Shown: piece after piece, positions 576-26,857 of the stretch | How the letters are laid out: the number at the start of each line of letters is the position of its first letter | Numbering within the stretch: the stretch's first letter is position 1 | Source: a virus | Length of the DNA: 28,127 nucleotides | Virus record (IMG/VR): IMGVR_UViG_3300035698_018921 | Location: 1-28,127 of that record | Reading direction: 5' to 3' (one strand) | Position numbers and translations under genes: made by a program | The notes under the pieces: model-generated | What the model was told of the DNA's origin: nothing | Seen by the model: the letters and a program-made list of their open reading frames with translations, nothing else | Databases searched by the model: none

Positions 576-838
576 GTCAGGATCCATCAAAGGACGGAAG
601 TAACATTGCCGTGGTAGTTAACAATTATGATGTTATTAGGGACAAGTATGGTCATTTTTGGAATTATTTAGAACATATTTATATCCAAGCTGGGCTGTAT
701 CAAGATAACTATATGACATTGCACGATTTAACTGATTATGACTATCAAGCTATAATCATGGTGCTCAATGGTATCCATCAAGCAAAGAATGAATTTAAGT
801 CAAATGAGAAGTTCCTAGATAGTTTCTTCGGCTCTTAA
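114..838 (+). CDS. Tail assembly chaperone, frameshifted long form (gpGT-like)
   Basis: Slippage by -1 at C CCA AAA (527-533) would join the first 140 residues of the short form to 101 residues read in the -1 frame, giving about 241 residues. The T extension starts ILKAFCSSK and ends DSFFGS. The -1 frame has an ATG at 485 but no convincing ribosome binding site, which argues for frameshifting over separate initiation. In lambda-like phages the long form is made at a low ratio and binds tail tube subunits while the G part coats the tape measure. The family role is established; its use here is inferred from position and the slippery site. Confidence 0.7.
527..533 (+). other. Programmed -1 ribosomal frameshift site (C CCA AAA)
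   Basis: In the zero frame the codons read CCC CCA AAA TCC. The heptamer C CCA AAA fits X XXY YYZ exactly, so both tRNAs can re-pair after a one-base backward slip. The -1 frame then stays open to 838. The zero frame ends at 575, giving a 42-nt window downstream. Confidence 0.75.
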
Positions 839-840
839 AA

Positions 841-848
841 TGTAAATA
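841..848 (+). promoter_or_regulatory. Putative late promoter motif before the tape measure gene
   Basis: TGTAAATA sits in the core 11-mer AAATGTAAATA (838-848), in the 46-bp gap between the GT stop and the tape-measure ATG at 885. The same 11-mer occurs before several other gene starts in this genome. A phage-specific promoter is inferred. Confidence 0.5.
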
Positions 849-884
849 TGAATAGCATTTGAAACTCATCGGGGACAGTAAAAC

Positions 885-2654
885 ATGGCCAATGTCAGTA
901 CAAACGTATCAGTAACATCTTCAGATAATCTATCCCAATTACAAGATAATTTGAACGGTGTCACAAAAGCCGTGGAAGATGTAGATAAAGCTTTGGATAA
1001 AGCTGCGCATCAGGCCGGGGCTATGGGTCGAGCAGTTTCGGCTGGGTCGGACAAAGCAGAATCATCTGTTAGAAGTCTCAGGCAAGCCGCTAACGGAGCC
1101 GCAAATGGTTTGGCCGCTATGGGTGGTGTGTCAACTTTGGCAGCCATAGGTGGCATTGTAGCCGCTGTGGAACTCGCTAAACTTGCATTTGAAGGTCTAA
1201 AGATTATTTTAGAGAAGACAGTAGAATCAAATGAGGAAGTAGCCAGTAGACTATCTAATACCTCCAATGGATTAAATACTATGACCGCCGCATTGGGTGG
1301 TGCCATTTTTGGTGGTGAGGGAGCTAACGCTGTCTTTGATACCTTTAATTCAATAATCCAACAGGCTACAGACTATATTGAAGCCAATAAAGATTCAATT
1401 GATGCATTTGTCGTCAGCATGTCTGGGGGATTCCTCACGGCCATACAAACATCTATCCAGGTTGTTGGTTTTCTAGCTACTGGTTTCAATAATATAAGAG
1501 CAATTATACCTCTAATGCAAATTGGAACAGTTAATCTTGCATCTGCATTTATTGATTTCGGATTAGTTTTAACTGATGCTGTGGTAGGTGCCATATCTTT
1601 GGCTGCAAGTTCCCTCGCTGACTTCGTCGACGGCTCGGTAGAACTAGCAAATAGAATTCCAGGTGTAAGTATTCAACTGGATGCTGCTTCTACTGTATTA
1701 AGAAACTTTGCTGCTGACGCTGATGCCTCCAGCGAATCTTTGAATGCACAAAGAGCTGCTATGGAAATGGCAGCAAACGTTACACGAGACGAATATGTTG
1801 CAGAATTGGTTAGATTAGAAGATCAAAATGCTTCTATTACAGAAACTGTTGGACTAGCATCCGCAGCAATTGATGGTATGGCCTCTAGAATGGCTTCAGG
1901 GGCTGCCTCTGCCACGACGTTTGCTGCGGCGCAAGAAGACGTGGGTGGGTCAACAGATACCGCCACAGAGGCTCTCAATGCGCAAGCTCAAGCTTTAGAA
2001 AAACTATTATCTCTCCAGTCTGAACAGGGTGCAAGACTATTGGCACAGAAAGAAGAAGAATCTATTAAACAATTAGAACTTCAAACTATGCTTACTGATG
2101 GTATATTAGCAGATAAGCAAAGAGAGTTGGACGCATTGGCCAAGATGGGCGCAATTAGCATCGAAAGAGCAGCGAGCCAAAGCGATAAACTATTAGAAAT
2201 AGCAACTGCTGAGAAAGAAGCTAGAGCTGAAAGAGATTCTTTAATCACAAATAAGGCTCAGGGACTATCGGCTGCTCTTGTTTCTATTGAAGGAAAAAGC
2301 GCCAAGGAGCGCAAGAAGGCAGCCAAGCAGGCAATTGCTGGCGTGTTAAAATCAGAAGGTTCCGGCCTTATTGCTCAGGGTGTTGGTAATCTAATAGCAT
2401 TGAATCCAATTGGATCCCTCCAGATTGCCGGTGGTACATCTATGCTGGTGGCCGGTCGTAAGCTCGGCGGCGGCGGAGGAGGCGGTGCTGGTTCTGCTCC
2501 ATCAGCTCCAGTTTCAGCCCCAAGGGCCAATGTTCAGGCAGGAAATAATACAACAATCAACCCAACAGTTAATATAGGTTTTGCTGGGGATCGTAGAGCT
2601 ATCTCGCGAGATGTTGATGATGCTGTAAGAAAATCACAGTCTAGGAGAGTATAA
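885..2654 (+). CDS. Tail tape measure protein
   Basis: This 589-residue protein follows the tail chaperones and precedes the distal tail protein, the usual place for the tape measure. It is helix-rich and Ala-rich, with heptad-like coiled-coil stretches near residues 10-65 and 370-460. Strongly hydrophobic segments lie around residues 75-110 and 175-240 (for example AAIGGIVAAVELAK). The C-terminus has a Gly-rich linker (about 530-540), then a short Asn/Thr-rich stretch and a basic end. At roughly 1.5 angstrom per residue, a rule known from the family, it would specify a tail near 90 nm. A ribosome binding site-like GGGGA (871-875) precedes ATG 885. It is the clearest tail call after the tube protein. 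Confidence 0.85.
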   Translation: MANVSTNVSVTSSDNLSQLQDNLNGVTKAVEDVDKALDKAAHQAGAMGRAVSAGSDKAESSVRSLRQAANGAANGLAAMGGVSTLAAIGGIVAAVELAKLAFEGLKIILEKTVESNEEVASRLSNTSNGLNTMTAALGGAIFGGEGANAVFDTFNSIIQQATDYIEANKDSIDAFVVSMSGGFLTAIQTSIQVVGFLATGFNNIRAIIPLMQIGTVNLASAFIDFGLVLTDAVVGAISLAASSLADFVDGSVELANRIPGVSIQLDAASTVLRNFAADADASSESLNAQRAAMEMAANVTRDEYVAELVRLEDQNASITETVGLASAAIDGMASRMASGAASATTFAAAQEDVGGSTDTATEALNAQAQALEKLLSLQSEQGARLLAQKEEESIKQLELQTMLTDGILADKQRELDALAKMGAISIERAASQSDKLLEIATAEKEARAERDSLITNKAQGLSAALVSIEGKSAKERKKAAKQAIAGVLKSEGSGLIAQGVGNLIALNPIGSLQIAGGTSMLVAGRKLGGGGGGGAGSAPSAPVSAPRANVQAGNNTTINPTVNIGFAGDRRAISRDVDDAVRKSQSRRV

Positions 2655-2657
2655 TAA

Positions 2658-3578
2658 ATGGCTTCATATTTAAACACACCTGAGTTTCCAATTATCAGTT
2701 ATAACGTGGCTGTGCCAGAAATAACTGTTACGGTTCTAAACATATCTACTGCTGAGACTCATAATACAATCATTCCTCTGGGCTCATACCTTGGATATAG
2801 TCAGACATGGAATACATCCTTGGGTGGGCTTGCCGTTGCAGGAAATAGAAGTCTAAATGGCATTCTAGACCAAGTTGTCACAGATGTACTCGTTAATGAT
2901 TTTGGATATGTAGGAGCTTCCTGTTGGACTGCTTATGATACTGTCACATCTTTAGGCGAAGTTCAGTTGAGAACTCTTATACATTTTGATACAGTTCCAG
3001 CAGCAGCAGCCGGATATAGAATTACTTTATCAAGTAACTTTGAGGACTTTGGATGGGACTCAGCTAATAGAGTTTTACCAAATGTCACATTTGTTGCAGC
3101 GAATGACTTTTATCCATCTGGACTGTGGCAACCGTATAATTTAACTGTGTTAGATAACAGGAGAAGTTTAAGGGAAGTCTATCAAACAGAGGCTTCTTAT
3201 GACTTCCCAGTTGAAACGCTGACTTGGGGTGAGCAGAAAGTTAGAAGGGTCATGTCCTTTCCAGCAGTTTATGCTGCATATATCTACGAATATAGAAAAC
3301 AAGTTCAATCATTTGCTGATGTGGCCTCGGTCGATTCAACAGACCCACACAATCTACTAGCTAACATGATGTCAGCATTAGGTGTAGACACATCGTGCAG
3401 GATTTATCAAGGGCCAGCAGATGCGACCGATACGGCTGGACAGTACTGGCAATCGTATTATGTAGGGACGGGAGTCAATGATACGTCATCTATCATTGAC
3501 GACGTGTCAAATGGGCAGATGTTCTCGGTAAACTTAGGATTTCTTCTTTCAAATAAGGTAGGAGCGGGAACAATCTAA
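2658..3578 (+). CDS. Putative distal tail protein (Dit-like)
   Basis: This 306-residue beta-rich protein lies directly between the tape measure and a large hub protein. Siphophages place the distal tail protein there, forming the ring that joins tube to tip. It starts 3 bp after the tape-measure stop with AGGAGAG at 2643-2649. Its own stop overlaps the next ATG by one base (TAATG). No diagnostic motif is visible, so the role comes from order and size. It could instead be another minor tail protein. Confidence 0.55.
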   Translation: MASYLNTPEFPIISYNVAVPEITVTVLNISTAETHNTIIPLGSYLGYSQTWNTSLGGLAVAGNRSLNGILDQVVTDVLVNDFGYVGASCWTAYDTVTSLGEVQLRTLIHFDTVPAAAAGYRITLSSNFEDFGWDSANRVLPNVTFVAANDFYPSGLWQPYNLTVLDNRRSLREVYQTEASYDFPVETLTWGEQKVRRVMSFPAVYAAYIYEYRKQVQSFADVASVDSTDPHNLLANMMSALGVDTSCRIYQGPADATDTAGQYWQSYYVGTGVNDTSSIIDDVSNGQMFSVNLGFLLSNKVGAGTI

Positions 3579-6500
3579 TGACAAATCAATACAAAATAGC
3601 TTATATGGTCCTCCATGGTTGGGGGTATGTGACAACTGATATGGCAACATCTACAGTTGTCTCCGTAGTTAATGTTTCTGATGATATTTGGGACGTGGAA
3701 TTAACATTTGCCACAGCTTATAGTTCCACCATTTTTGATATCGATGACGAAATAGGATCAAGAGTCTGGTGTGAAGGACTTTCTACCAGAAATATCTTTC
3801 CTGGAGAATATACTCTCATAAATGCTGATGGAGCAAGTAATAGAATCACAATTAGAGGCGAGTTTACCCTTGGAAATCCAACTACAGGTACAGCCGTTAA
3901 CGGGACCACACGCATCGAAGACTTCTATAAGTATTCAAATGCTCGACATCCAGACTTTGTCACCGGAGCTAATGCTCAGTCCAGATGGGTCGGGAATATC
4001 ATTAGAGGGCAAGATCAAACCACGGAAGGCATTTCCCTCACAATAGGCCAGAGTATCGACCTAGATAAGGCGGGGTTCGCGTCAGTTGGCGGCATTTCTG
4101 TTACTATGGCCTATTCCGAATCATACCCTTCAATAATTAGATTACTAAGGTCAAGACCGGAATATATTCAAGACGTTACAGATAAAGAACTAATCACAGA
4201 AGCTATGACCCTGAATGTGGCTCGTTCAGCATACGCCACCAATCTTGGTATTAAATACACGCGCTCAACTGCGCCTACTGTTGTCCTAGACAACGCTGAT
4301 GCGGTAGATACCTCATTTAATGCCACAAATGGTACAGCCTTTTCGTTTAGTCCAATCTGGATTGATCAAGAAGCTATGATATTGAACGCGGATTCAACGC
4401 AAACTGCTGGCACACAACGTTCCCTTGCTGTCACTCGCGGCGTACTTCGCACCCAAGCTGTGAATCACGTCCCTAAATCAACAGTATTACAGCCTCTCCC
4501 AGGTTCAATTGGAACGCTCTGCCAAATATTAACAATAGATTCTTCAGCCCTTCTACTTTCAGCAGAAGACGAACAGTTTTTCGGCATCGTTGAAAACCTA
4601 TTAATTGTGGATAACCAAACCAAGTTTACTTTAGAAATCTCAGATGTTTCTATTACAGGTTTTAGGCAGACATTTCAGGCAAAACTTGCAGGAGCTTCCC
4701 TTGTACTGGATAAAGCTAGAAATTCCAATTTAGATCAAAGATTGAAATTCGACGTGGATGATACCATACCTTATATTAATTCCACGACTTCTCAAGGATC
4801 TTGGCAATGGTTACAAATAGGTAAGGCTGCTGTTAGGGTGGACGATCTAAACTACATTCAGGCTGATGACCAACCAAAATACATTCAGAATATTCAGCCA
4901 ATAATTGACACCAATGGAAACTATGTATACAGATGCGAGTACAAGGGTAACGGGTTTCTTTCATATCGATTAACTGGATCAGCAACTACTTTAGTTGATA
5001 ACTGGTATACTATTGAGCCATCTGAGGATCAATTATCTCAAGATCCATACCTATATCCAGTCTCCCTACTTGATGGGGACGATGCCCGTAGTACATTAGC
5101 TAATAATTACAGAGCCAGATCAGAGGGTTCTTTTCTAATTAGATCAGACCAGATCGAAATGCCTATAGGTTCCAATTTTGAAACACAAGGTGGAGGGCCT
5201 ACAAGGGATGCCGTATATATACAACAGTTTGATCAAGATAATAGAACTAGACTTAACAGAGACTTGGGAGATACTGGAGAAGATTTTTACACGAAACGTG
5301 CTTATAATGCTATTGGACCACGAAAGAACATCTCCCTATGCCACGTTTTTGAGCAGACTCCAGGTCTTGTAATTGGTTTGGAAAGAGATGATACTGAACT
5401 AGTTAATACAATAAATCCTCTAGCAAAGGTTGCATTCAATAAGAAGAAAATCAATGTTGCAATGCTATTACTTCAGGTACTAACATCTGGTGATGGTCTA
5501 TGTGGAGATAGTCCGAATGGAATTTGGGATGTTTTACCACACAATGTGGGGCTTGGTATTCCTTTAGATAGAATAGACTTAGAATCCTTTGGAATAAAAG
5601 ACTTTGGAAACGGTACTACATACGAATTCCAGCCACGAGCACCTGAACAGGCAGCGAAAGGAGCTGATAGATGGGCACGAACTGAATTTTATAACGTCGC
5701 AATCAAACAGAAAGATACGGGGAATGTGGCAAAATGGCTGACACAAAAGATATTAAGACCTCTTGGTGTTGTTCTTGCTCAATCAAAAAATCCAGATACT
5801 GGACTGCTGCAACTCACAGCATATCCAATTCAGGGAGTCGCGCCCACCAGCGAAGCAGAATTGAATATAATTTCTGGTGTCGGTCTTACTGATGCAGATT
5901 TATTTAAAGAAGTAGGACAACCTATAGACTTCTCGTCAGAGGCTGATGGTGGTGATATTATTTCTTCTGTTTCATATAAATGGCAAAACATCACGAATAG
6001 AATAGATGACACCGATGTAGCCTATAATCAAACTATAAAAACAATACCGGCGTTGCCTGTTACAGACTCTGCCGAGGTTCAGCCTGGAGCTAATCTATTC
6101 AGTTTCATACAAGCTAAGCCAGTTGAAATTACCCTTGATTTTCAACCAGTTGCAACAAAGGTTATAACTAAACTAGGTAGAGATAAGGTGAGGGAATATT
6201 CCAGCGTTCTCTCACGAATTAATTTCACAACTCAAAATACAAATGACATCAGAGTTGGTCAGAGAAAGTTCTTATCTTTTACTAATGCCATTAATACATC
6301 CTCTGGAGAGCGTGGTATAGCTGGTGTTGGCATTGTTATTGAGCAGAAAAATGACATATTGAAAGGACTATTTTACAACACGGTACTAGTTATACTACAG
6401 ACTAAGAGTTTCAATTATAACAATTGGGCGCCAACTGGCGAACTAGACATTATCAATTCAAATGTATCATTTGATATTATAAGAAATAAGTTCTCTATGC

Positions 6501-6793: not shown

Positions 6794-6796
6794 AAC

Positions 6797-9409: not shown

Positions 9410-9417
9410 TTCATAAT

Positions 9418-9425
9418 GTAAATCT
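9418..9425 (+). promoter_or_regulatory. Putative late promoter motif variant (TGTAAATC) before the membrane gene cluster
   Basis: AATGTAAATC lies in the 50-bp gap between the last tail gene and the membrane-protein gene at 9460, 34 bp before its ATG. It differs by one base from the repeated TGTAAATA motif. Promoter function is inferred. Confidence 0.4.
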
Positions 9426-13150: not shown

Positions 13151-14071
13151 ATGGCAAAAAAGAAGAATTTCTGGGACAACGACGTTATGAATCCCTTGTT
13201 GGGGCAGTATAAGTCTTTATATGTCATAGACAAAAAGTCAAAAACGGCCAAAATGGTGGGTCCAGAGTCGCTCAGAAAGGCTCTCTATGACGATCAGATA
13301 CATGCACAGCTAGCAGGACTAGTTAATGCAGCAGCCGTGATAATTGATCGTAGTCTCGGAAATAGATTTGCTAGTCGCGCGCTTAACTATGACGTAATCC
13401 ACGGATGCACAGCTTTTTTGAACGAATGCATTCTTTTTAATTGGGATTCGTCAAAGTCCAAGAGTTTCAATTACTTACTACTCTGTGCGCGTGGATGGCT
13501 AGTTGATTATCATAAGGGTCAGAGTAAGAGGGCTACTTCTGGAGATATTGGAAAGATTAAATACAAGAGTAGCATCAAAGACCTTCCAGATCATTTGAGG
13601 GATTTGAAGAACACGGAAAGATGGAAGATTGGAGATTGGGTCGATGAAGAATTCCCTGGATGTACGTGGGGTTGGCACCGTAAAAAAGAGAACAAAGTAT
13701 TAATTAATACTCCCATCAGATACATTGTATCGATGAATGACGAGGCACAGGTTGAAGAGATGGCGGCGGAGGAGGATGTATCATGGGCCCAAATTATCGA
13801 CACAATCAATTGGCAACTCCTATCAGAGTACATCCCGGATACATCCTCCTCATATTATTCAAAACAATTAGCTTATAGTCTCATAGATATATTAAAAGAC
13901 ATTGTTACACATTCAGAAGATGGGATTTATAAAGGAAAGAAATTGAATCAAATATATCTCTACAGTTTGCTCACCCAGGCCCTCCCTTATTCAGTCAATA
14001 TGGGCGCATTTATTTTGACAAAAGATACTCTTCGACAAGCATATAGTTTTTATGCTGAGGATTACATGTGA
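13151..14071 (+). CDS. Sigma-like transcription factor (T4 gp55-like region 2)
   Basis: In this 306-residue protein, residues about 78-126 resemble sigma factor region 2. A DVIHGCTAFLNECILFNWD stretch is followed by KSKSFNYLLLCARGWLVDYHKGQSK. This matches the pattern of bacterial sigma factors and T4 gp55, where the first part binds the RNA polymerase clamp helices and the second contacts the -10 element. The C-terminal half is not recognisable as region 4. It lies between terminase and portal genes and is transcribed with the head genes, start ATG 13151 with AGGT upstream. The likely role is directing RNA polymerase to phage late promoters. The call is from pattern only. Confidence 0.55.
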   Translation: MAKKKNFWDNDVMNPLLGQYKSLYVIDKKSKTAKMVGPESLRKALYDDQIHAQLAGLVNAAAVIIDRSLGNRFASRALNYDVIHGCTAFLNECILFNWDSSKSKSFNYLLLCARGWLVDYHKGQSKRATSGDIGKIKYKSSIKDLPDHLRDLKNTERWKIGDWVDEEFPGCTWGWHRKKENKVLINTPIRYIVSMNDEAQVEEMAAEEDVSWAQIIDTINWQLLSEYIPDTSSSYYSKQLAYSLIDILKDIVTHSEDGIYKGKKLNQIYLYSLLTQALPYSVNMGAFILTKDTLRQAYSFYAEDYM

Positions 14072-14083
14072 TATTCACATAAA

Positions 14084-14091
14084 TGTAATAT
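14084..14091 (+). promoter_or_regulatory. Putative late promoter motif variant before the portal gene
   Basis: AAATGTAATATATAG lies in the 56-bp gap before the portal ATG (14128). It shares AAATGTAA with the repeated 11-mer but then diverges. The preceding CATAAATG is also late-promoter-like. Weak, position-supported call. Confidence 0.35.
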
Positions 14092-14127
14092 ATAGTATGA
14101 CTTATAGGATTCAAAAAGGTTAAAAAT

Positions 14128-15451: not shown

Positions 15452-16750
15452 ATGCCGCTAATATCAGGCACCACCGACAGTATCATATTAAATAACATTA
15501 GAGATCTTGTCAAATCAGGTAAAACTCCAGCTCAAGCAGCGGCAATTGCTTACGAGATGGCGGGTAGAATAAAAAAGTTTGCCCATATTATGCCACGAGG
15601 TGGAGTTCTCAATGGTGAGTCTATCTTACCGATGGGCGATGAAGACTTTTATAAAGAAACCATGAGTTCCATGAAAGCTTGGATCGATGCCAATGACGTA
15701 CCAGTATTAAGAGAGCATAAGTCAGATGGATTAGTCTGGGGGCAGGTAACTGACTTAGTTTCAGCCTCGGATGGTGCCTGGATGGGGTTCTTTTTAAATC
15801 AAGAGCTGGAAGATTCTTGGAAGGAAGGAAAGATTAAATGGGCTTCCATCGGAATGAGATTGAATTATAGACCAGATGATTCCGGCCTGAATGATTCACC
15901 TCTTGCTGCGATACCGTTGGAAATGTCAATTACTTCCACGCCTCGGCATAAGGTCAGGCAACAATTTATAACTACAGATAAGCCTGTCGCGGACATGGAA
16001 CTTTCTGATGAAAATGTAAATAAAGACAACACAGTATACTTGGATTTGCACCTGTCTGACGATGGTTTGCTCAGGTACGCTACCGAAGATGATATTCACA
16101 AGGAGAAGAATACTATGGACATGAATCAACTAAAAGAAATGATTCACGAGCTTTTGTCACCAGTTATGGCTCGTTTGGACGAGCTTGAAAAACTAGATTC
16201 AGAGGCCCGTGATGATGACCGCAAAGAGGACCAGAATGAAAAAGAGGTTGAAGCCGCTGATGAATCCCCAGACGAGGGGGAGGCTACTGAGGCTACTGCT
16301 GACGATAGCGGAAGCAATAGCGAGGAAGAGAAAGTTGAGGCGGCAGAAGAAGAAGGAAAAGAAAAGGAAGACGAAGTAAAAATGTCTGAAGATTCCAACC
16401 TTGTGAAAGAAAATGCCGAACTTCTAATGTCAGTTGTTTCTTTGCGCACCGAAATGGCAAAGATGAAGGCTGAGAGAGTCGTCGAAAAAGATTTAATCAA
16501 TAAGCCACATCTTGGAGATATGAAAGAAAAGCTCGTTGGTATCTATATGAATGACCAGGATCTTTATAACGACGTATTGGACGTGTCAAAAAATGTAAAT
16601 AGCGACTCGTTTTTCTCTGAAAGGCTTTCAAGCGGCGTTTCAGAATTGAAAACACAAGATAAAGTAAATCCTTACGTAGCAGCAAAAGAACTGTCTGCTT
16701 CTGAGGGTATCTCTTATAGCGAAGCTATGAGCAGAATAACCAATAAATAA
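15452..16750 (+). CDS. Prohead protease fused to scaffold (Mu I/Z-like)
   Basis: This 432-residue protein has an N-terminal half (about 50-200) with features of Mu gpI-type prohead proteases: REHK with His89, then KWASIGMRL with Ser132, likely catalytic residues. The C-terminal half is highly acidic and helical (about 240-430, Glu-rich), as in scaffold proteins. The start is ATG 15452 with AAGGAG upstream; an in-frame ATG at 15350 lies inside the portal gene. An internal ATG at 16115 with AAGGAG 9 nt before it would make the scaffold alone. It matures the capsid by cleaving scaffold and capsid protein. Family assignment is from motif layout and neighbours. Confidence 0.75.
   Translation: MPLISGTTDSIILNNIRDLVKSGKTPAQAAAIAYEMAGRIKKFAHIMPRGGVLNGESILPMGDEDFYKETMSSMKAWIDANDVPVLREHKSDGLVWGQVTDLVSASDGAWMGFFLNQELEDSWKEGKIKWASIGMRLNYRPDDSGLNDSPLAAIPLEMSITSTPRHKVRQQFITTDKPVADMELSDENVNKDNTVYLDLHLSDDGLLRYATEDDIHKEKNTMDMNQLKEMIHELLSPVMARLDELEKLDSEARDDDRKEDQNEKEVEAADESPDEGEATEATADDSGSNSEEEKVEAAEEEGKEKEDEVKMSEDSNLVKENAELLMSVVSLRTEMAKMKAERVVEKDLINKPHLGDMKEKLVGIYMNDQDLYNDVLDVSKNVNSDSFFSERLSSGVSELKTQDKVNPYVAAKELSASEGISYSEAMSRITNK
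16015..16022 (+). promoter_or_regulatory. Intragenic copy of the AAATGTAAATA motif upstream of the internal scaffold start
   Basis: The exact 11-mer AAATGTAAATA (16012-16022) lies in the protease coding sequence, 92 bp before the internal ATG at 16115. It may be an internal promoter for scaffold, or chance in an Asn/Val codon run. Confidence 0.3.
16115..16750 (+). CDS. Putative internally initiated scaffold protein
   Basis: This in-frame internal start in the protease gene would yield a 211-residue protein beginning MDMNQLKEMIHELL. AAGGAG at 16100-16105 with 9-nt spacing is as good as the start sites of real genes here. The product is an acidic coiled-coil protein with no protease part. Lambda Nu3 and Mu gpZ are known scaffolds made from internal starts within protease genes, so the arrangement has precedent. 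It would be made in excess over the protease to guide capsid assembly and then be removed. Confidence 0.6.
   Translation: MDMNQLKEMIHELLSPVMARLDELEKLDSEARDDDRKEDQNEKEVEAADESPDEGEATEATADDSGSNSEEEKVEAAEEEGKEKEDEVKMSEDSNLVKENAELLMSVVSLRTEMAKMKAERVVEKDLINKPHLGDMKEKLVGIYMNDQDLYNDVLDVSKNVNSDSFFSERLSSGVSELKTQDKVNPYVAAKELSASEGISYSEAMSRITNK
16594..16601 (+). promoter_or_regulatory. Intragenic copy of the AAATGTAAATA motif before the decoration/capsid genes
   Basis: The exact 11-mer (16591-16601) lies near the end of the scaffold coding sequence, 167 bp before the decoration gene. It could supply extra transcripts for the abundant capsid proteins. It is less secure than the intergenic copies. Confidence 0.3.
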
Positions 16751-18129: not shown

Positions 18130-18138
18130 TCAGGACGA

Positions 18139-18176
18139 AGGGAGGTATCAGCGATGGTGCTTCCCTTTTTCTTTTT
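18139..18176 (+). terminator. Strong rho-independent terminator of the head operon
   Basis: A 12-bp stem (18139-18150 with 18155-18166, including G-U pairs) is closed by a GCGA tetraloop and followed by a T-rich tract (18166-18176). This is the best terminator in the window and ends the plus-strand head operon. Confidence 0.9.
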
Positions 18177-19004: not shown

Positions 19005-19262
19005 TTATTTATATTCATATCTTAACTTTGAATCACACACATCAAGTTCGGTCGGAAACCATAGGGGCATTATCTTGTTCAGAAAGTAAAAGTCATACAT
19101 GGTATTCTCACAAGTTTTTTCCATAATGTCAGGGAAGATCTCGTGGAGAAAAAAAGATTTCATTTCATCTTCGGAGTAATTATTTAACATATATAATAGC
19201 ACCGTGACTTGTATTATTTCATAATACGTAACATACTCAGGATCTAGTAGTAATAGTTTCAT
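19005..19262 (-). CDS. Hypothetical small protein, possibly leaderless
   Basis: This 85-residue protein (from ATG 19262) is of unknown family. It begins MKLLLLDPEYVTYYEII and is rich in aromatic and acidic residues, with no membrane segment. An upstream extension to 19310 overlaps the terminator of the preceding gene, so it is unlikely to be translated. TGTAAATA ends only 5 bp before this ATG, which would make the mRNA leaderless or nearly so. No ribosome binding site is seen. Another in-frame ATG at 19190 is possible. Whether it is a real gene is uncertain. Confidence 0.4.
   Translation of the reverse strand: MKLLLLDPEYVTYYEIIQVTVLLYMLNNYSEDEMKSFFLHEIFPDIMEKTCENTMYDFYFLNKIMPLWFPTELDVCDSKLRYEYK
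19006..19013 (-). promoter_or_regulatory. Putative late promoter TATAAATA before the nuclease gene
   Basis: On the minus strand, exact TATAAATA (19013-19006), the T4 late promoter core, overlaps the stop codon of the preceding gene and lies 64 bp before the nuclease ATG (18941). Confidence 0.45.
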
Positions 19263-19266: not shown

Positions 19267-19274
19267 TATTTACA
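19267..19274 (-). promoter_or_regulatory. Putative late promoter motif before the 85-residue gene
   Basis: On the minus strand, ATATGTAAATATAGT (TGTAAATA at 19274-19267) lies just after the terminator at 19292-19322 and 5 bp before ATG 19262. The T4-like start point would coincide with the ATG. Confidence 0.4.
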
Positions 19275-19280
19275 TATTAA

Positions 19281-19322
19281 AAACCCCGCAAACCAAAAAC
19301 CCCCGACCATGCGGGCCGAGGG
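19281..19322 (-). terminator. Rho-independent terminator of the minus-strand structural-like genes
   Basis: On the minus strand, CCCTCGG (19322 leftward) pairs with TCGGGGG around a 9-nt loop, with two G-U pairs, then TTTTTGG. It ends the operon of the two Gly/Ser-rich genes. Confidence 0.65.
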
Positions 19323-20174: not shown

Positions 20175-20178
20175 ATAC

Positions 20179-20542: not shown

Positions 20543-20550
20543 TATTTACA
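20543..20550 (-). promoter_or_regulatory. Putative late promoter motif before the 104-residue gene
   Basis: On the minus strand, exact AAATGTAAATA (20553-20543) lies between the tRNA and the structural-like operon, 49 bp before ATG 20493. It is one of seven exact copies of this 11-mer. Confidence 0.5.
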
Positions 20551-20566
20551 TTTAATAAGGACGTCT

Positions 20567-20581
20567 GGCTCCAGTGGAGCC
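20567..20581 (-). repeat. Inverted repeat sharing the tRNA acceptor 3' strand
   Basis: On the minus strand, GGCTCC of the tRNA acceptor arm is followed by ACT and then GGAGCC, a perfect 6-bp inverted repeat. The 3' flank could pair with the acceptor strand in place of the tRNA 5' end. Confidence 0.7.
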
Positions 20582-20647
20582 TATCGGACTCGAACCGATC
20601 ACCTCCGCCTTGCAAAAGCGGCGCTCTCCCAGATGAGCTAAGGCCCC
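20575..20647 (-). tRNA. tRNA-Ala (anticodon TGC)
   Basis: This 73-nt cloverleaf has acceptor arms GGGGCCT/AGGCTCC (one G-U pair), D arm GCTC/GAGC, anticodon arm CCGCT-TTTGCAA-GGCGG with anticodon TGC, variable loop AGGTG, T arm ATCGG-TTCGAGT-CCGAT and discriminator A. CCA is not encoded. TGTAAATA ends 9 bp upstream of its first base. It is the only tRNA seen and may support Ala-rich virion proteins. Confidence 0.96.
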
Positions 20648-20655
20648 AGATGTAA

Positions 20656-20663
20656 TATTTACA
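20656..20663 (-). promoter_or_regulatory. Putative late promoter motif directly before the tRNA
   Basis: On the minus strand, exact AAATGTAAATA (20666-20656) precedes the tRNA. By analogy with T4 late promoters the transcript would start about 3 nt before the mature tRNA 5' end. The site sits in the near-palindrome TGTAATATTTACA. Confidence 0.5.
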
Positions 20664-20698
20664 TTTTTCAGGTCTAGCCTTGACAAGATCTGGATGGT

Positions 20699-20717: not shown

Positions 20718-20762
20718 GGAAAATACTAAACGGAGAACAATTATGATAATAATACATAACCC

Positions 20763-20792: not shown

Positions 20793-20800
20793 ATAGTATC

Positions 20801-20903
20801 GGGTAGGGAGATGGACACAAAATAAAACTCCGTAAAAGTAAAAACCGTCCAGACGAATTGATCCTCGTCAACTCCCTACCCCGCCTTCGGGCTTTTTACG
20901 GGG
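20801..20903 (+). ncRNA. Predicted structured RNA: three-way junction plus possible pseudoknot
   Basis: P1 is GGGTAGGGAG (20801-20810) with CTCCCTACCC (20872-20881), a perfect 10-bp helix. P2 is TGGAC (20812-20816) with GTCCA (20847-20851). P3 is GACGA (20852-20856) with TCGTC (20865-20869). Junction linkers are 1, 0 and 2 nt. The A-rich P2 loop contains CCGTAAAA (20830-20837), complementary to TTTTACGG (20894-20901), which overlaps the T tract after a GCC-TTCG-GGC hairpin (20883-20892). An alternative CCCCG/CGGGG stem (20879-20883 with 20899-20903) would break P1. It may be a small RNA or an attenuator-like leader for the polymerase gene at 20967. I match it to no known RNA family. Confidence 0.6.
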
Positions 20904-20966
20904 TTTCTAAACAGTTTCTTTTATTATCAGATTAATGTCTGGTATTAAACAATTACGGAGAATAAT

Positions 20967-22487
20967 ATGAGCATGAAAATAAACAAGCTGGATGCTATGA
21001 AGCAGACTAATACTTCCTCACCAGGGGAGGATATATGGTTGGACCCAATGATTTCAAAATCTGCTGGATCTACAAATCAACTGTACATAATGGCTGGATA
21101 TGTGGAATCTAAGATGGGCTGGCCCTGTGGCGTGAAGAGAGGTCATCTAATCCTATCTCACCTAGCTGACTGCCATTATAGAGAATTAAATTACTGGGCT
21201 GATGAGGCTCCAGCTTACATAGCAATATCCCTGGATAAAAACGACTACCGTCCACAAAATGCGTCAAACAAATCTAAGTCTGGGAAGATGATAAGAAGGG
21301 ATTATAAGAATGCCTTTTTCAAACTAGATGAAATCAAAGACACGATAGAGAAACTGAGAGATCATGGATACATCTTTATTATTGGAGGTGCATCTGGAAG
21401 AAAGACTAGAATAACTCCTTCAAGAAAACTAAAGATACTTTTTGAGGTGACTCCAGAAAACTTAACAACTGCAATCGAATATAACTCTAAAGAAAAGGCT
21501 ACAGCCCTTATTAAAGAATCATTTGTCTCAATAATTGTTAAAGATCAGAATAAAAGACTAACAACTACTATTGATGGTACTACGAGAAACCTGGAGAGGA
21601 CTAGAAATATATTGCTGAAAGCTATGGAGACTATCTGGTCATCAGAACACGTCCTCAGTCTTGAATTAACTCAAGATATGATAGACAATGCATCTGATGA
21701 GACGGCAGATCATCTTGCGAGAATGCTTAATGATGCAACTGTAGATTGGAGCCCTCTAGAGGAGTCCCACGACGACCTGAATCTCACACCCACCCCCTCT
21801 ATACCCTTAGGTAAGTATACAGAGACTATTTCAGGGTACTCAACATACAAAAACTTCAATGATTACAAAGGTATAGACGTGGCTGGACTGGCGCACCTCA
21901 TTTTGGCCCCTGGCAGCTATAATATCACCCCTCATTTGGTCTGCAAAACTGTCTACAATAATTGCTCCAGCAAGCAAGGCGGAAGACTGTATTGCGCTGC
22001 ACAAAACATCCCAAAAGAATTCAGAGTCGGATTACGAATAAATGGTGAGCCATTAGTTTATCTCGACATTAAATCATGCCAACCAAGAATGCTTTTCCAC
22101 ATGAAGAACCTGGAAGCTCCAGACGATCCATATCTAATAGAGGGATACGACAGGTCAGAGATGAAAAAGATCGTCAATATAGCCATAAATAACCCAAAGA
22201 CCACCAGAAGCCCTCTAATCAAAGCGTTCCTGCAAGCCCACCCCTTGGTACAAGATTACATTGGATCAGGCGTAGGGATTAAATTACAAGCCTTTGAGGG
22301 TACAATAGCTCGTAGGCTGATGGATAAATGGACATGCAGGAAGGGAATACTATTCTTGCCGATACATGATGGCTATATAATCCAGAAAGAATATGAAGAA
22401 GAGTTTTCAAATGACATAATTAATTATTACTCGGACATAAAAGAACTAAATAACTTCAATCCAATACTGGACATTGAACATATATAA
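20967..22487 (+). CDS. PolA-like palm-domain replication protein
   Basis: This 506-residue protein has a C-terminal polymerase palm. Motif A is LDIKSCQPRML (Asp367, Arg374), the motif B-like helix is RSEMKKIVNIAINN (396-409) and motif C is LPIHDGYII (His467-Asp468), the order seen in family A DNA polymerases and T7-type RNA polymerases. GGRLYCAAQNIPKEFR upstream of motif A is typical of a phage/plasmid branch as I recall it. No 3'-5' exonuclease motif is seen. Residues 1-330 are charged, helical and unrecognised. ACGGAG precedes ATG 20967. It is the only replication gene visible, so it may combine initiation and synthesis. A fragment of this gene recurs at 10485-10610. Confidence 0.65.
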   Translation: MSMKINKLDAMKQTNTSSPGEDIWLDPMISKSAGSTNQLYIMAGYVESKMGWPCGVKRGHLILSHLADCHYRELNYWADEAPAYIAISLDKNDYRPQNASNKSKSGKMIRRDYKNAFFKLDEIKDTIEKLRDHGYIFIIGGASGRKTRITPSRKLKILFEVTPENLTTAIEYNSKEKATALIKESFVSIIVKDQNKRLTTTIDGTTRNLERTRNILLKAMETIWSSEHVLSLELTQDMIDNASDETADHLARMLNDATVDWSPLEESHDDLNLTPTPSIPLGKYTETISGYSTYKNFNDYKGIDVAGLAHLILAPGSYNITPHLVCKTVYNNCSSKQGGRLYCAAQNIPKEFRVGLRINGEPLVYLDIKSCQPRMLFHMKNLEAPDDPYLIEGYDRSEMKKIVNIAINNPKTTRSPLIKAFLQAHPLVQDYIGSGVGIKLQAFEGTIARRLMDKWTCRKGILFLPIHDGYIIQKEYEEEFSNDIINYYSDIKELNNFNPILDIEHI

Positions 22488-22772
22488 GAAAGACAAGAAA
22501 CTAGATACCACAGAGGAGATAGCATTAATAAATACAATCAATACAATCTGAAAGCAAGAGGCAAGGCCACCCACAACGATTAGGGAGACTCAAGTACTTT
22601 TGAAATCATAGCTTATGAGAAACTGAAAGCATGGTTACCCATCACAATGTCTACTTAAAGGTCCACAACCGCCCCTAGAATCCATTTGTAATACCTACCC
22701 TACGCCGTACCATATCAAGGACCAACAAAGTCCTTAGAAGGTATTTGAGAGACTAACTCTTAATTAAAATTA

Positions 22773-22793
22773 CTTAAAGTCAATTCTAGGAAA
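22773..22793. repeat. 21-bp direct repeat, copy 1
   Basis: The sequence beginning CTTAAAGTCAATTCTAGG is repeated exactly at 22851-22871, with starts 78 bp apart. The two copies flank an AT-rich segment. Confidence 0.9.
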
Positions 22794-22850
22794 TAAAGGT
22801 CACATCAAATGCAAATAGTCTTTTAATTTCAACAAGTTAAGAGAACATTC

Positions 22851-22871
22851 CTTAAAGTCAATTCTAGGAAA
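22851..22871. repeat. 21-bp direct repeat, copy 2
   Basis: This is identical to 22773-22793. It lies 4 bp before the terminator stem at 22876. Possible iteron-like site or a product of local duplication. Confidence 0.9.
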
Positions 22872-22875
22872 GGAG

Positions 22876-22905
22876 CCTAACTGTTTGATATTGTTAGGTT
22901 TTTTT
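22876..22905 (+). terminator. Rho-independent terminator before the lysis genes
   Basis: CCTAAC (22876-22881) pairs with GTTAGG (22893-22898) and is followed by seven Ts. It separates the polymerase transcript from the lysis/late operon. Confidence 0.8.
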
Positions 22906-22935
22906 ACATCATGGACTCCATAAATGTTAGTAAAA

Positions 22936-22943
22936 TGTAAGTA
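22936..22943 (+). promoter_or_regulatory. Putative late promoter motif variant (TGTAAGTA) before the lysis operon
   Basis: AAATGTAAGTA (22933-22943) follows the terminator and lies 29 bp before ATG 22973, differing from the repeated 11-mer at one base. Confidence 0.45.
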
Positions 22944-22972
22944 ATAATAGTACTAATTAAGAGGAGGTCTAC

Positions 22973-23536
22973 ATGGGGAAATTAGGAAAGAAGTTCTTGG
23001 CATCGCTGCCACACAATCTTTATTATTCAATCACAATTAGGCGCACCAAGCCGAAGAATCATGGTAGATGGGCTCTCCCAAATCACAAGAATATTGAATC
23101 TATAGCATTAGCTTTAAATATGGGTAGAAGCTATAAGTCAGATGGACTAATTGATAAGGTTAATCACCCCAGATTAACTCAGAAGAGGATTCAAAATTAT
23201 AAACCTATCGGTGATTGTGATGATCATGCAATCTATATCGCATCATGCTTATTGAAGTCTGGACTGGCAACTAATGTTAATTTACTATCGGTATACTATC
23301 AGAAGGAACATAATAAGAAAGGAGCACATGTCGTATGCTTTTTTACGGGTCTGGATGGACAAAAGTATTGGATGGATTATGGAATGCCTAATGCATCAGC
23401 TAACATCTCAGCGGCATCATATTGGATTGGGGACCATGCGTATGGTACTAGGGTAATCTCGTCCACAGTAACGCCTGTGCGTCGTCTAGGGCGTCATGAC
23501 ACACCCATCCTAGGAAAGTCCAGGCGCGTGCTATAA
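22973..23536 (+). CDS. Transglutaminase-like cysteine protease
   Basis: This 187-residue protein carries the core of the transglutaminase-like fold: GDCDDHA with Cys82, GAHVVC with His119 and YWMDYG with Asp135, in the order of the Cys-His-Asp triad. Bacterial and phage members include cysteine peptidases. AGGAGG at 22963-22968 gives a strong start at ATG 22973. There is no signal peptide. It opens the lysis operon and its stop overlaps the next ATG (TAATG). The substrate is unknown; cell-wall crosslinks, host proteins or virion processing are possible. Confidence 0.6.
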   Translation: MGKLGKKFLASLPHNLYYSITIRRTKPKNHGRWALPNHKNIESIALALNMGRSYKSDGLIDKVNHPRLTQKRIQNYKPIGDCDDHAIYIASCLLKSGLATNVNLLSVYYQKEHNKKGAHVVCFFTGLDGQKYWMDYGMPNASANISAASYWIGDHAYGTRVISSTVTPVRRLGRHDTPILGKSRRVL

Positions 23537-23739
23537 TGTTTATCAAGTTATTTTATTTGTGGTGTCTATTTGGATGTTTGACATGGGGACATGGTGACTT
23601 CCAAAGTATTGAAACATGTTTGGTCAACGAATGGGAACATGGAGATATGTGTGAACCACACAGAACAATAGACTATAGAGAAGTAATTGGTTGGGAAAAA
23701 ATAGAAAAGATCCCACAAAAGGAGAAGTATGATTGCTAA
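23536..23739 (+). CDS. Small membrane or secreted cysteine-containing protein
   Basis: This 67-residue protein has a hydrophobic N-terminus at about 2-18 (FIKLFYLWCLFGCLTWG) and a polar, acidic remainder with two further Cys and a C-terminal Cys. The segment could be a signal anchor. It overlaps the gene before by one base and the endolysin gene after by 11 bp, so the three are coupled. A holin-type or signal-arrest role is possible from position, but the hydrophobic stretch is short. Family not recognised. Confidence 0.5.
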   Translation: MFIKLFYLWCLFGCLTWGHGDFQSIETCLVNEWEHGDMCEPHRTIDYREVIGWEKIEKIPQKEKYDC

Positions 23740-24310
23740 AATGATGATAGATATGAGAAGCCATCCTAATATAATAATGTGTCAGATAGCGAGGTCCTAT
23801 GCCAAGATGGAAGTCCGGGAAAGAAAAAGTAATAGAGGTCGTTGGGTGGACGCTATTGTTGCTATGGGCGGCGGGGATGCTACTGATGCTGGTGCTTGGT
23901 GCGTATATTTTGCATGGGCGTGTGCTCATCAATCGGCGTTATCAACAGGTATGCGACTGGATAATGAAACATCGGGAGGGGTAGTTAGAAGTTGGCACAA
24001 AAACGATGAGAATAGAATCACAATAGCCGCTGTGAGAGCCGGATTTGCTTCTCCAAGACCTGGAGATATTATGGTTAGAGTTAGGTCTGCGCCCGACCTG
24101 TCGGGTGTCTTACAAGGCGGCTCAGCATATGGGCACGCAGAGGTGGTACTTGCGGCTCCAGATTCCGAAGGATGGATTCACACAGTAGGCGGAAACACAA
24201 ATGGTGAAGATTCCGCCGAAGGCGATGGGGTATACGAGAAGATTAAAGGCATTAATCTAGATGATGATAGGCTGATCGGATTCATCCGCCCATCATGGTC
24301 AAAACTGTAA
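23729..24310 (+). CDS. Endolysin with CHAP-like domain
   Basis: This 193-residue protein has a NlpC/P60-CHAP-type catalytic order: AWCVYFAWACA with Cys58, GHAEVVL with His136 and VGGNTNGE with Asn156. SPRPGDIMV before the His matches CHAP domains. These enzymes cut peptide or amide bonds in peptidoglycan. No signal peptide or membrane anchor is visible, so it would need a holin. AAGGAG at 23718-23723 supports ATG 23729. It has no separate cell-wall-binding domain, usual for phages of Gram-negative hosts. A second reading frame inside it encodes a hydrophobic protein (23799-23984). Confidence 0.75.
   Translation: MIAKMMIDMRSHPNIIMCQIARSYAKMEVRERKSNRGRWVDAIVAMGGGDATDAGAWCVYFAWACAHQSALSTGMRLDNETSGGVVRSWHKNDENRITIAAVRAGFASPRPGDIMVRVRSAPDLSGVLQGGSAYGHAEVVLAAPDSEGWIHTVGGNTNGEDSAEGDGVYEKIKGINLDDDRLIGFIRPSWSKL
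23799..23984 (+). CDS. Embedded membrane-protein ORF inside the endolysin gene (possible holin)
   Basis: This 61-residue ORF lies wholly in the +1 frame of the endolysin gene. It has a basic N-terminus, one strong hydrophobic segment at about 14-39 (VVGWTLLLLWAAGMLLMLVL) and a charged tail with RR and KHREG, the topology of small holins. GAGGT lies at 23791-23795, slightly close to ATG 23799. Hydrophobic overlaps can arise by chance in an Ala/Gly-rich enzyme, so this is a hypothesis. Its appeal is that no other convincing holin sits in this operon. Confidence 0.3.
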   Translation: MPRWKSGKEKVIEVVGWTLLLLWAAGMLLMLVLGAYILHGRVLINRRYQQVCDWIMKHREG

Positions 24311-24313
24311 ATA
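24306..24313 (+). promoter_or_regulatory. Putative late promoter motif before the connector genes
   Basis: AAACTGTAAATATCTATAG contains TGTAAATA overlapping the endolysin stop codon, 34 bp before the connector ATG (24348). Confidence 0.45.
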
Positions 24314-24347
24314 TCTATAGTAGATAAACCAATCAAAGGTAATCCAT

Positions 24348-24809
24348 ATGGCAAATACATTCTCAATTGACACAGCAGACCTACAGGCTGTTGTTTCTAA
24401 TTTAACTATTGACGCAACAACTCAGCCCAATACTGCGCAAGTATCTGAAATCATTGAATATGCAGCAGCAGAAATGGAACTGGAGAGCGAGGCCGTAGGT
24501 CTATCGACTGCTGGATTGACTGACGCAACTGACAGTATGTATCTACTATATAAGCGAGCAATCATATACAGGTCTGTAGCTGATACGCTGGTGGCAAAAA
24601 ATAGAGGCAACGCTGACTCTGGGAAATACTACATGGATCAACATTTAAGAATGCTGGATAACATTAGAAAGCACCCTGATAGAGTAGCATCCAGAACGTC
24701 AGAACAGGGACCAAACCGCATGAAGTACGTCACACGAGCAGAATCTAATGCTAATCCCTACCAGATTGGTACGACCAATGGCAGGATTTTGGCCAGCAGG
24801 AGCCTCTAA
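24348..24809 (+). CDS. Head-tail connector / adaptor protein
   Basis: This 153-residue protein is predominantly helical (AQVSEIIEYAAAEMELESEAVG, then SMYLLYKRAIIYRSVADTLVAKN), the pattern of gp6/gp15-like adaptor proteins that bind beneath the portal. It starts the connector-tail operon and is followed at once by a gp10-like gene. AAGGT precedes ATG 24348. Assignment is from helical layout, size and order. Confidence 0.6.
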   Translation: MANTFSIDTADLQAVVSNLTIDATTQPNTAQVSEIIEYAAAEMELESEAVGLSTAGLTDATDSMYLLYKRAIIYRSVADTLVAKNRGNADSGKYYMDQHLRMLDNIRKHPDRVASRTSEQGPNRMKYVTRAESNANPYQIGTTNGRILASRSL

Positions 24810-25217
24810 TTGATTTCTTTAGATTCAAACTTTGCTGATCTGACCTCATGGACTCAAGATCTTCAGTATGATATCGACCTACTAAATGAATTGTTAGATA
24901 ATTCAAGCTTTATCCGAGGCGTAGCTCAAATTATGGAAGAATCATATCAAGATATATGGGACACAGAAGGTGCAGTCATAGGTGAAGACTGGGACGGTAG
25001 AGATTTAGTTCAATCTGGAAGATTAAGATTAGAAGCTACATCAGCCTTGTCGTTCACGGTGTCGGGAGATTCAATAACATTCCAGATAGATGTGCCCTAT
25101 GCCTCAATCGTCAATGACTTATATCGATTTAATGCTATCACACCTGGAACTCCTGCTAAAATAGAAGACCTTATTAAAAATACTTTGAACTCTGAAGGGA
25201 AATTGCTCTGGACCTAA
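24810..25217 (+). CDS. HK97 gp10-like tail completion / stopper protein
   Basis: This 135-residue protein begins with TTG at 24810, directly after the previous TAA, with AGGAG 7 nt upstream. Residues about 70-95 carry LVQSGRLRLEATSALSFTVSG, matching the 'SG-x-L-R-x-S' core of gp10/virion-morphogenesis proteins, followed by beta strands ending DVPYASIVN. These proteins complete the head-tail interface. Order after the adaptor agrees. Confidence 0.65.
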   Translation: MISLDSNFADLTSWTQDLQYDIDLLNELLDNSSFIRGVAQIMEESYQDIWDTEGAVIGEDWDGRDLVQSGRLRLEATSALSFTVSGDSITFQIDVPYASIVNDLYRFNAITPGTPAKIEDLIKNTLNSEGKLLWT

Positions 25218-25255
25218 CTAGTTAATCTTGCGTACTCCCGAAACCGAGAGATAAC

Positions 25256-25873
25256 ATGGCTCCAATCAAAATACTGCCCCCAAATGAGTTGAATCAATTA
25301 GCTCTACAATACAAAGTAAATCCCACAGCCATACTATCACAGCAATTAATCTCCAGTACAGAGGCTATGATAGTACACATCATGCATAAGCTTTTTGCTA
25401 AATCAACATTGGCTGCACATTACAAAGACTTGATGCAATCTGGGTTTGTTGGAGTATTAGATTCTGCCAATAGATATGATGATTCTAAGGGGTCCTTTTC
25501 AAATTACGCTTGGTTTTACATCAGATTACATATGCAGAGCTTTCTCTACACACAATCAATGGTAGAAGATAGTCCATCAGCGTATGCACAGAATGAAGAA
25601 TCGCATGAAGATGTATTAGGTCGACTTGGCGATGCGTCGTTACCTGGTGATGACATGATTGATTTAGAAGTTAAAAACATTATAAATATCATGGATGAAC
25701 TGATCAAGTCTGGAAAGCTACTAGCTCGGCAGAAGTTTATCATTTTAGAGTTCTTATTGAACGATAGGTCTATCACATCAATAAGTAAGGAGATGGGATT
25801 CACGCGCCAGCACATTAATAACGAATATAATAAAGGCATAGTAATAATACAGAAGAGATTAGGTGTTGAATAG
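25256..25873 (+). CDS. Sigma-70-family-like transcription factor
   Basis: In this 205-residue protein, residues about 58-97 match sigma region 2: DLMQSGFVGVLDSANRYDDS, then GSFSNYAWFYIRLHMQSFLY. Residues about 161-200 form a helix-turn-helix typical of region 4: ITSISKEMGFTRQHINNEYN followed by KGIVIIQKRLG. The pattern fits compact sigma factors that direct RNA polymerase to selected promoters. GAGAG precedes ATG 25256. It sits oddly inside the connector-tail operon. It is the stronger of the two sigma candidates and may read the repeated AAATGTAAATA sites. That link is an inference. Confidence 0.72.
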   Translation: MAPIKILPPNELNQLALQYKVNPTAILSQQLISSTEAMIVHIMHKLFAKSTLAAHYKDLMQSGFVGVLDSANRYDDSKGSFSNYAWFYIRLHMQSFLYTQSMVEDSPSAYAQNEESHEDVLGRLGDASLPGDDMIDLEVKNIINIMDELIKSGKLLARQKFIILEFLLNDRSITSISKEMGFTRQHINNEYNKGIVIIQKRLGVE

Positions 25874-25883
25874 TTCGGTGAAA

Positions 25884-25891
25884 TGTAAATA
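25884..25891 (+). promoter_or_regulatory. Putative late promoter motif before the tail terminator-like gene
   Basis: Exact AAATGTAAATA (25881-25891), continuing TAGATGA, lies in the 45-bp gap after the sigma gene and 27 bp before ATG 25919. Confidence 0.5.
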
Positions 25892-25918
25892 TAGATGACT
25901 ATATACAGTAGGTAATCG

Positions 25919-26857
25919 ATGGCAATAAAATCAATTCTATACGCTCAGACGTACCTGGAAAAGAAGATCCAATGGGCTCTCCATACATATATGGGCACAA
26001 AGGTTACTGAATACAATAAGGACCAGAATCTAACTGGCGCAGAAGCAATTGAATTGCCAAGGAAGTACTATGTTGGATCTGACATGCTCCCTCTGGCATC
26101 CCTGGCCCATTCCCCATTTGATACAATGCCAGTTGTAATCGTAAAACAAACCTCGTCCTCGGTTGCATCAGAAACTATGGCGGGAACTAGAGATTTGGTA
26201 ATCAATTATGAAATAGTTGCTATCTCCGTATCTGATATGGCCGAGGTGGACTTCGCCACGAGACAGTCCAAACATCTAGCTCTCGCTGCTCAGGAGGTCC
26301 TAGAAGGTCGCCTGCCTGATCGAGCAAACGATACTGATGGATGTGTGGTGTGGGATACTAGGTTGTTATCAAATGCTGGAACCTATACTATTCCTGTTCA
26401 ATCACAATCATTACATTGGGTGGCTACAAGCGTGAGTATGGAAGTTAGAATTAGAACTGCCTGGAAGTATCAGCCAACCTATGCCCCAATTGATTTGCCA
26501 CAAACTCCTTGGTATGCTAATGCTTTTGCAGCTCCGATCGTATCAATTCAATCTTCCCTCGCTACTCCAATGGGTTCTGCTAGTCCATCCCAGCAAGTTA
26601 ATCTGTCTGTTTTATCTGGAACGATAACAGGGTCGACTGCCACATCTTTGACGGCGGCAACAATGCCAGATTCATCGACCGTATTCTTGATCAATCAAAC
26701 TCAAGGTGAGCGATATACAACTACATTTACATCTGGCGTGGCAACGATACCCTTGACTTCGGCCTCAATAAATGATGGTGATCAATGGACTATTACAAAT
26801 GTAAATAATACTACTGGGACACCGTGCAACTACTTGATCTCGTGGACCCTAATTTAA
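25919..26857 (+). CDS. Putative tail terminator with extra C-terminal beta domain
   Basis: This 312-residue protein lies between the connector genes and the tail tube, where tail terminators (gpU-like, normally about 130-200 residues) are found. Residues 1-190 could be that domain. Residues about 205-312 are Ser/Thr-rich and beta-stranded (QQVNLSVLSGTITGSTATSL), resembling an Ig-like decoration. TAGGT before ATG 25919 supports the start. The extra domain is unusual. It may instead be a minor head-tail or tail-sheath-related protein; the name is from position. Confidence 0.45.
   Translation: MAIKSILYAQTYLEKKIQWALHTYMGTKVTEYNKDQNLTGAEAIELPRKYYVGSDMLPLASLAHSPFDTMPVVIVKQTSSSVASETMAGTRDLVINYEIVAISVSDMAEVDFATRQSKHLALAAQEVLEGRLPDRANDTDGCVVWDTRLLSNAGTYTIPVQSQSLHWVATSVSMEVRIRTAWKYQPTYAPIDLPQTPWYANAFAAPIVSIQSSLATPMGSASPSQQVNLSVLSGTITGSTATSLTAATMPDSSTVFLINQTQGERYTTTFTSGVATIPLTSASINDGDQWTITNVNNTTGTPCNYLISWTLI
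26800..26807 (+). promoter_or_regulatory. Putative late promoter motif before the tail tube gene
   Basis: Exact AAATGTAAATA (26797-26807) lies near the end of the preceding coding sequence, 65 bp before the tail tube ATG (26873). It would give this abundant protein its own transcript. Confidence 0.4.

Follow-up and report, generated by a model that had tools for sequence, protein, structure and literature searches.

A repeated 11-bp box is very likely a late-type promoter of a 28-kb phage and is likely read by a phage-encoded sigma factor

Late promoters of phage T4 consist of the box TATAAATA at positions −13 to −6, without a −35 element and with AT-rich DNA downstream (PMC1524935, PMC2988020). 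The late box of phage Aeh1 is CTAAATA, from −12 (PMC1524935). In phages 7-11 and phiEco32, a short box upstream of structural genes was found from sequence and ascribed to a phage sigma factor, which is a distant relative of the sigma A family and whose own gene lies downstream of such promoters (PMC4331800). The stretch analysed here is the whole of IMG/VR virus record IMGVR_UViG_3300035698_018921, an environmental phage (28,127 bases; the window), in which the 11-mer AAATGTAAATA, with the core TGTAAATA, is repeated on both strands. As an earlier reading of the letters by a model (the sequence-only reading) pointed out, this core differs from the T4 late box by one base, G for A. The 11-mer is very likely a late-type promoter of the phage, and the sigma factor encoded at 25256-25873 likely recognises it. 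Statistics and anatomy of the sites argue strongly for a promoter, and moderately for its reading by the phage sigma factor.

Seven exact copies of AAATGTAAATA are present, all at the places given by the sequence-only reading (Table 1), and no other 11-mer of the genome is as common when both strands are counted. The expected number is 0.04-0.09 according to Markov models of order 1-5, which bears out the claim that such an 11-mer should occur well below once by chance. In 300 dinucleotide shuffles, the commonest 11-mer of any kind has at most 5 copies, and none reaches 7. When one mismatch is allowed, 12 matches are found against 1.57 expected, and none of 100 shuffles gives as many. The core TGTAAATA has 9 copies against 1.65 expected. 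The comparison with natural DNA covers 58 other loci, each 15 kb or longer; 11 of them are GC-matched (GC 0.36-0.46), and in these the most frequent dispersed 11-mer is present 3-5 times. The words that recur most in the natural loci are AAAGTGCGGTG (Pasteurellaceae) and GGCTGCCTGAA. These two words are abundant in prophage regions of Pasteurellaceae and Neisseriaceae (L047-L062, L063, L116), and we take them to resemble DNA-uptake words of their hosts. For the copies inside genes, the abundance of AAATGTAAATA is beyond that explained by codon usage and protein sequence: the exact box has 3 in-gene sense copies, against a codon-shuffle mean of 0.28 (0 of 300 shuffles).

With gene starts curated by ribosome-binding site, seven of the nine TGTAAATA copies lie 12-73 nt upstream of the start of a gene or tRNA on the same strand (44, 42, 35, 73, 12, 57 and 16 nt), where 4.2% of oriented positions are expected (P ~7e-9), and all the upstream copies are sense-oriented. 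The earlier statement that most copies lie 5-65 bp before a gene holds for four or five of the seven exact copies; those at 16012 and 16591 are in-gene, and that at 26797 lies within the end of a gene. The near copies then reported are of unequal quality. Those at 24306 and 19274 (minus strand) contain the full TGTAAATA, that at 22936 is TGTAAGTA, and that at 9417 is TGTAAATC. Those at 81 (TATAAATC), 19013 on the minus strand (TATAAATA) and 14084 (AAATGTAATATA) are weaker, and the T4 word TATAAATA is not enriched in the window (4 copies against 2.4 expected, 1 of them upstream of a gene). A motif search on upstream regions, proposed as a check by the sequence-only reading together with the shuffle count, recovers the word unsupervised. 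The input was 33 upstream regions, in which the last 18 nt before the start were masked in all but two, because ribosome-binding sites were mixed into the unmasked motif run. The motif returned by the search, which allows zero or one occurrence per sequence (ZOOPS), is AAATGTAAAT; its log-likelihood is 48.3, and the highest value among 30 random genomic sets is 37.6. Thus, a chance or composition artefact of an AT-rich genome, for which the A/T-rich word and the chance frequency of near variants such as TATAAATA might speak, has a negligible probability, because it is excluded by the shuffle, Markov, codon-shuffle, natural-DNA and positional controls.

Column conservation from −50 to +44 around the nine sites is limited to the 11 bp of AAATGTAAATA. 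No −35-like signal is seen at these sites, the columns from −50 to −4 being non-significant except one at p=0.046, and no second conserved element is present in the 50 nt before the box or the 44 nt after it. The 10 nt after the box are AT-rich, with a GC of 0.31 against 0.44 upstream. In a positive control, a 30-kb late-gene region of T4 (76000-106000), TATAAATA occurs 12 times; 7 copies lie 22-36 nt before an ATG, and the remaining ones are 81-472 nt away, mostly inside genes. The layout of the boxes in the window is that of T4 late promoters with a different word. A count like the present one would look alike for any dispersed upstream word, such as the site of an activator or repressor beside unremarkable promoters. 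This possibility is quite improbable: the 11-bp word is non-palindromic, its upstream copies share one orientation relative to the gene, and it is placed relative to the start codon as a −10 box would be, 35-44 nt away at five core sites, which is T4-like. With no second element between −50 and +44, the core promoter would moreover have to escape notice at each of the sites.

Three boxes are preceded by terminator-like hairpins that end 20-30 nt before them. One exact box lies before the gene for tRNA-Ala and a second one between this gene and the next, an arrangement that fits a promoter and not a translation signal. By analogy with T4, the +1 at the tRNA box would be 20650, giving a 3-nt leader before the mature 5' end. 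That the word acts in the mRNA leader, as a translation enhancer or in RNA stability, and not as a DNA promoter is therefore very improbable. The boxes do lie 35-57 nt before many start codons, in leaders that share a conserved GGAG-type ribosome site, but the copy directly before the tRNA gene precedes an untranslated product, Rfam finds the tRNA only, and there is no conservation downstream of the box. The number, position and orientation of the boxes, the lack of a −35 element, the terminator-to-box order, the tRNA site and the T4 control all agree with the phage-specific late promoter that the sequence-only reading proposed.

The in-gene boxes at 26797 and 16591 may be internal promoters, and a function of that at 16012 is doubtful. 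The copies at 16012 and 16591 share one gene, in which each encodes N-V-N. At 19262 (minus strand), the ATG is so close to the box that a T4-like start would coincide with the start codon; the transcript of this gene may be leaderless, or the true start may lie further in. The tRNA gene is a single one. As is typical of tRNAs for alanine, G3 pairs with U70 in its acceptor stem; the perfect hairpin GGCTCC-ACT-GGAGCC overlaps its 3' end, and the gene does not include CCA.

Table 1. Boxes, terminators and selected genes of the window. Distances to a start are counted from the first base of the core.
Feature	Position	Strand	Remark
Intrinsic terminator	29..60	+	−18.8 kcal/mol; precedes box at 81
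Weak variant AGATATAAATC	78..88 = 28078-28088	+	After terminator 29-60; TATAAATC (81) 33 nt before ATG 114
Box AAATGTAAATA	838..848	+	44 nt before ATG of tape-measure-like gene 885-2654
Variant box TAATGTAAATC	9414..9424	+	TGTAAATC (9417) 43 nt before ATG 9460
Weak variant AAATGTAATATA, one A short	14082..14093	+	About 43 nt before ATG 14128, portal gene
Box AAATGTAAATA	16012..16022	+	Inside gene ending 16750; 754 nt before next start
Box AAATGTAAATA	16591..16601	+	Inside gene ending 16750; 175 nt before start 16769, upstream of head genes
Weak variant GAATATAAATA (core TATAAATA, 19013)	19006..19016	-	72 nt before ATG 18941
Box ATATGTAAATA, full TGTAAATA	19267..19277	-	26 nt after hairpin 19322-19300; 12 nt before nearest ATG 19262
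Terminator-like hairpin + T5	19300..19322	-	−15.7 kcal/mol; precedes box 19277
Box AAATGTAAATA	20543..20553	-	Between tRNA and open reading frame 20493-20179; 57 nt before ATG 20493
tRNA-Ala(UGC)	20574..20647	-	
Box AAATGTAAATA	20656..20666	-	16 nt before mature 5' end of tRNA-Ala
Polymerase-like protein, 506 aa	20967-22487	+	Matches phrog_4756
Terminator-like hairpin CCTAAC..GTTAGG + T7	22869..22905	+	−13.2 kcal/mol; precedes box 22933
Variant box AAATGTAAGTA (core TGTAAGTA)	22933..22943	+	37 nt before ATG 22973; ~30 nt after hairpin 22869-22905
Box AACTGTAAATA, full TGTAAATA	24303..24313	+	42 nt before ATG 24348; heads sigma-gene unit
Sigma factor, 205 aa, regions 2 and 4	25256..25873	+	Profile matches; candidate reader of box
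Box AAATGTAAATA	25881..25891	+	35 nt before ATG 25919
Box AAATGTAAATA	26797..26807	+	In last 61 nt of gene 25919-26857; 73 nt before ATG 26873

Region 2 of the 25256-25873 protein matches Pfam Sigma70_r2 at 2.6e-8 (34 bits, cut-off 24) and aligns with region 2 of FliA. Its region 4 is covered by TIGR02937 (1e-13, above the curated cut-off), with residues 29-202 on positions 4-165 of the 165 of this profile. The protein matches phrog_351 at 8e-14, and T4 gp55 sits in phrog_234. A gp55 profile scores neither this protein nor the 13151-14071 protein above shuffled decoys. These results indicate that the 25256-25873 sigma factor is outside the T4 gp55 family on present evidence. When the T4 register (−13 to −6) and the Aeh1 box are combined, the base at −12 differs between the phages: A in T4, C in Aeh1 and G in the window. 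In E. coli sigma70, Q437 and T440 read position −12. When region 2 is aligned by eye on F-S-x-Y-A-x-x-x-I-R, the window sigma factor has L and Q at these residues, which would fit a changed −12 base and is only a lead.

The sequence-only reading counted two sigma-like proteins, and profile searches support the 25256-25873 one only. The other, encoded at 13151-14071 (plus strand; 306 aa) divergently from the terminase unit, has no match anywhere; it was rejected as a second sigma factor because no sigma match is found in PHROGs, Pfam, NCBIfam, PDB or tblastn, and also on the gp55-profile and shuffle tests. Its stretches FNWDSSKSKSFNY and FNWDSSKSKSFNYLLLCARGWLVDY resemble sigma region 2 by eye, a resemblance that is non-significant. 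AlphaFold predictions without alignment give pLDDT values of only 34 and 42 for the two candidates. Among the nearest sigma-bearing contigs, L135 contains no box words; a single tandem array accounts for the repeated words of L136/L137.

We regard it as probable that AAATGTAAATA is a −10-only late box read by the host core RNA polymerase with the 25256-25873 sigma factor. The 11-mer with its core TGTAAATA would then be the entire recognition element, without a −35 element. The most likely reader would bind and melt the box by region 2 of the sigma factor, and RNA polymerase would start a few nucleotides downstream, 6 nt beyond the last box base if T4 is a guide. The boxes would drive the tail, lysis, head-tail connector, fibre-like and tRNA units. 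The polymerase unit and the remaining early ones would be transcribed by the host enzyme, which would somehow also give rise to the first sigma factor. The sigma gene lies in the unit headed by the box at 24303, so that the system would feed itself forward, with positive feedback once primed and high late expression.

The box is absent at the polymerase gene (20967) and at the divergent pair 13084 (minus)/13151 (plus), where the best motif scores are −2.1, −1.3 and 2.9, against 7-12 at the box sites. This confirms the earlier claim that the polymerase and terminase units lack it; presumably, these units would be read earlier by the host holoenzyme. The accompanying claim, that they have sigma70-like sites instead, finds no such support, since matches to TTGACA and TATAAT at a spacing of 16-18 are within or close to shuffle expectation in the two halves (46 against 43.1, standard deviation 5.0, and 49 against 38.6, standard deviation 6.4).

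Several points weigh against a late promoter read by the phage sigma factor. The case for a late promoter is built from statistics and anatomy. No box stands immediately before the sigma gene, whose unit looks late, and the first sigma factor must therefore come by another route. The sigma factor has region 4, the usual reader of −35, yet no −35 element is seen. No sliding clamp or gp33 family is matched among the window proteins, many of which are unassigned, and the T4 activation mechanism is thus not simply transferable. The exact copies at 16012 and 16591 lie deep in a gene, with no evident role. No relative with the same genes is available for ortholog comparison: megablast and tblastn searches of phage records (terminase, capsid, polymerase, sigma, portal), a related-locus search of IMG/VR (sigma, capsid, terminase, polymerase) and a scan of genome contigs together with terminase Walker B, polymerase and tRNA-plus-box patterns find only phages that share at most one distant protein. 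Finally, the box may be a real promoter read by a sigma factor of the host, either an alternative one or, with an unusual −10, the housekeeping one. The specificity of the phage sigma factor is one that we infer, and the unit of the sigma gene is itself a box unit. This alternative is nevertheless unlikely, because a dedicated sigma factor with a dedicated box for most virion genes is the pattern of T4 (PMC2988020) and of 7-11/phiEco32 (PMC4331800), and because the box is unlike the −35/−10 of sigma70, matches to which stay near the shuffle level.

Positions 1-127 and 28001-28127 of the record, which represents the whole virus, are identical, so that the unique genome is 28,000 bp. The genome is probably a closed circle or terminally redundant, and the box at 81 recurs at 28081 within the repeat. 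The number 127 is a frequent assembler k-mer length, and the identical ends may reflect the overlap of a circular assembly and not a true terminal repeat. Most genes of the phage are unassignable. The distant matches of the polymerase-like protein are hypothetical proteins of large Vibrio phages, and it is 32% identical over 174 aa to an 11.8-kb IMG/VR contig (L045). The 485 bases 3' of its gene (22488-22972) contain no long gene; they hold two direct copies of a 28-nt repeat that are 93% alike (22766 and 22844), an inverted repeat of 17 nt and the terminator-like hairpin, and are possibly a replication or regulatory region. Two convergent terminators, at 18137-18168 (plus) and 18231-18202 (minus), separate the capsid gene from the unit of opposite orientation.

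Among the matches listed for AAATGTAAATA and TGTAAATA in the open-access papers searched, none is by its title or abstract a paper on a phage promoter. The box offers a ready transcription map of the phage, in which it marks the probable late units. If the proposed reading is true, a T4-style late promoter made of a −10 box only is not bound to the replisome-coupled machinery of T4, one sigma factor with such boxes suffices for most virion genes of a small phage, and the −12 base is a natural specificity switch. Tentatively, a 28-kb phage without a clamp and gp55 may even have reached a T4-like, −35-free late promoter independently, with a small sigma factor of regions 2 and 4, a private G at −12 as the specificity base and its own tRNA served.

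Compared with 7-11/phiEco32, the window phage likewise has a short box upstream of structural genes and a phage-encoded sigma factor with its gene downstream of a box. The core word is TGATGT there and TGTAAATA here, and the long and short motif classes and the anti-sigma gene of that system are not identified in the window phage. The likeness to the T4 late promoter (gp55/gp33/gp45, Straboviridae) lies in an 8-bp box at the −10 place, the lack of a −35 element, AT-rich DNA downstream, the virion-assembly genes served and the further copies inside genes. The box is mostly 22-36 nt before the ATG in T4, and 35-44 nt before it at five core sites in the window phage. The T4 consensus TATAAATA, with A or T at −13, is not the word enriched in the window, which is TGTAAATA; this box has G where T4 has A at the second base, and the preceding AAA is conserved as well. 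The 28-kb window phage also differs in that homologues of the clamp, gp33 and gp55 are not detectable; its sigma factor matches phrog_351, and T4 gp55 falls in phrog_234. Aeh1, a T4 relative with a diverged gp55, shares TAAATA with the window box and has C at −12, where the window has G. Relative to T4, the box has one base changed and stands in an apparently unrelated phage.

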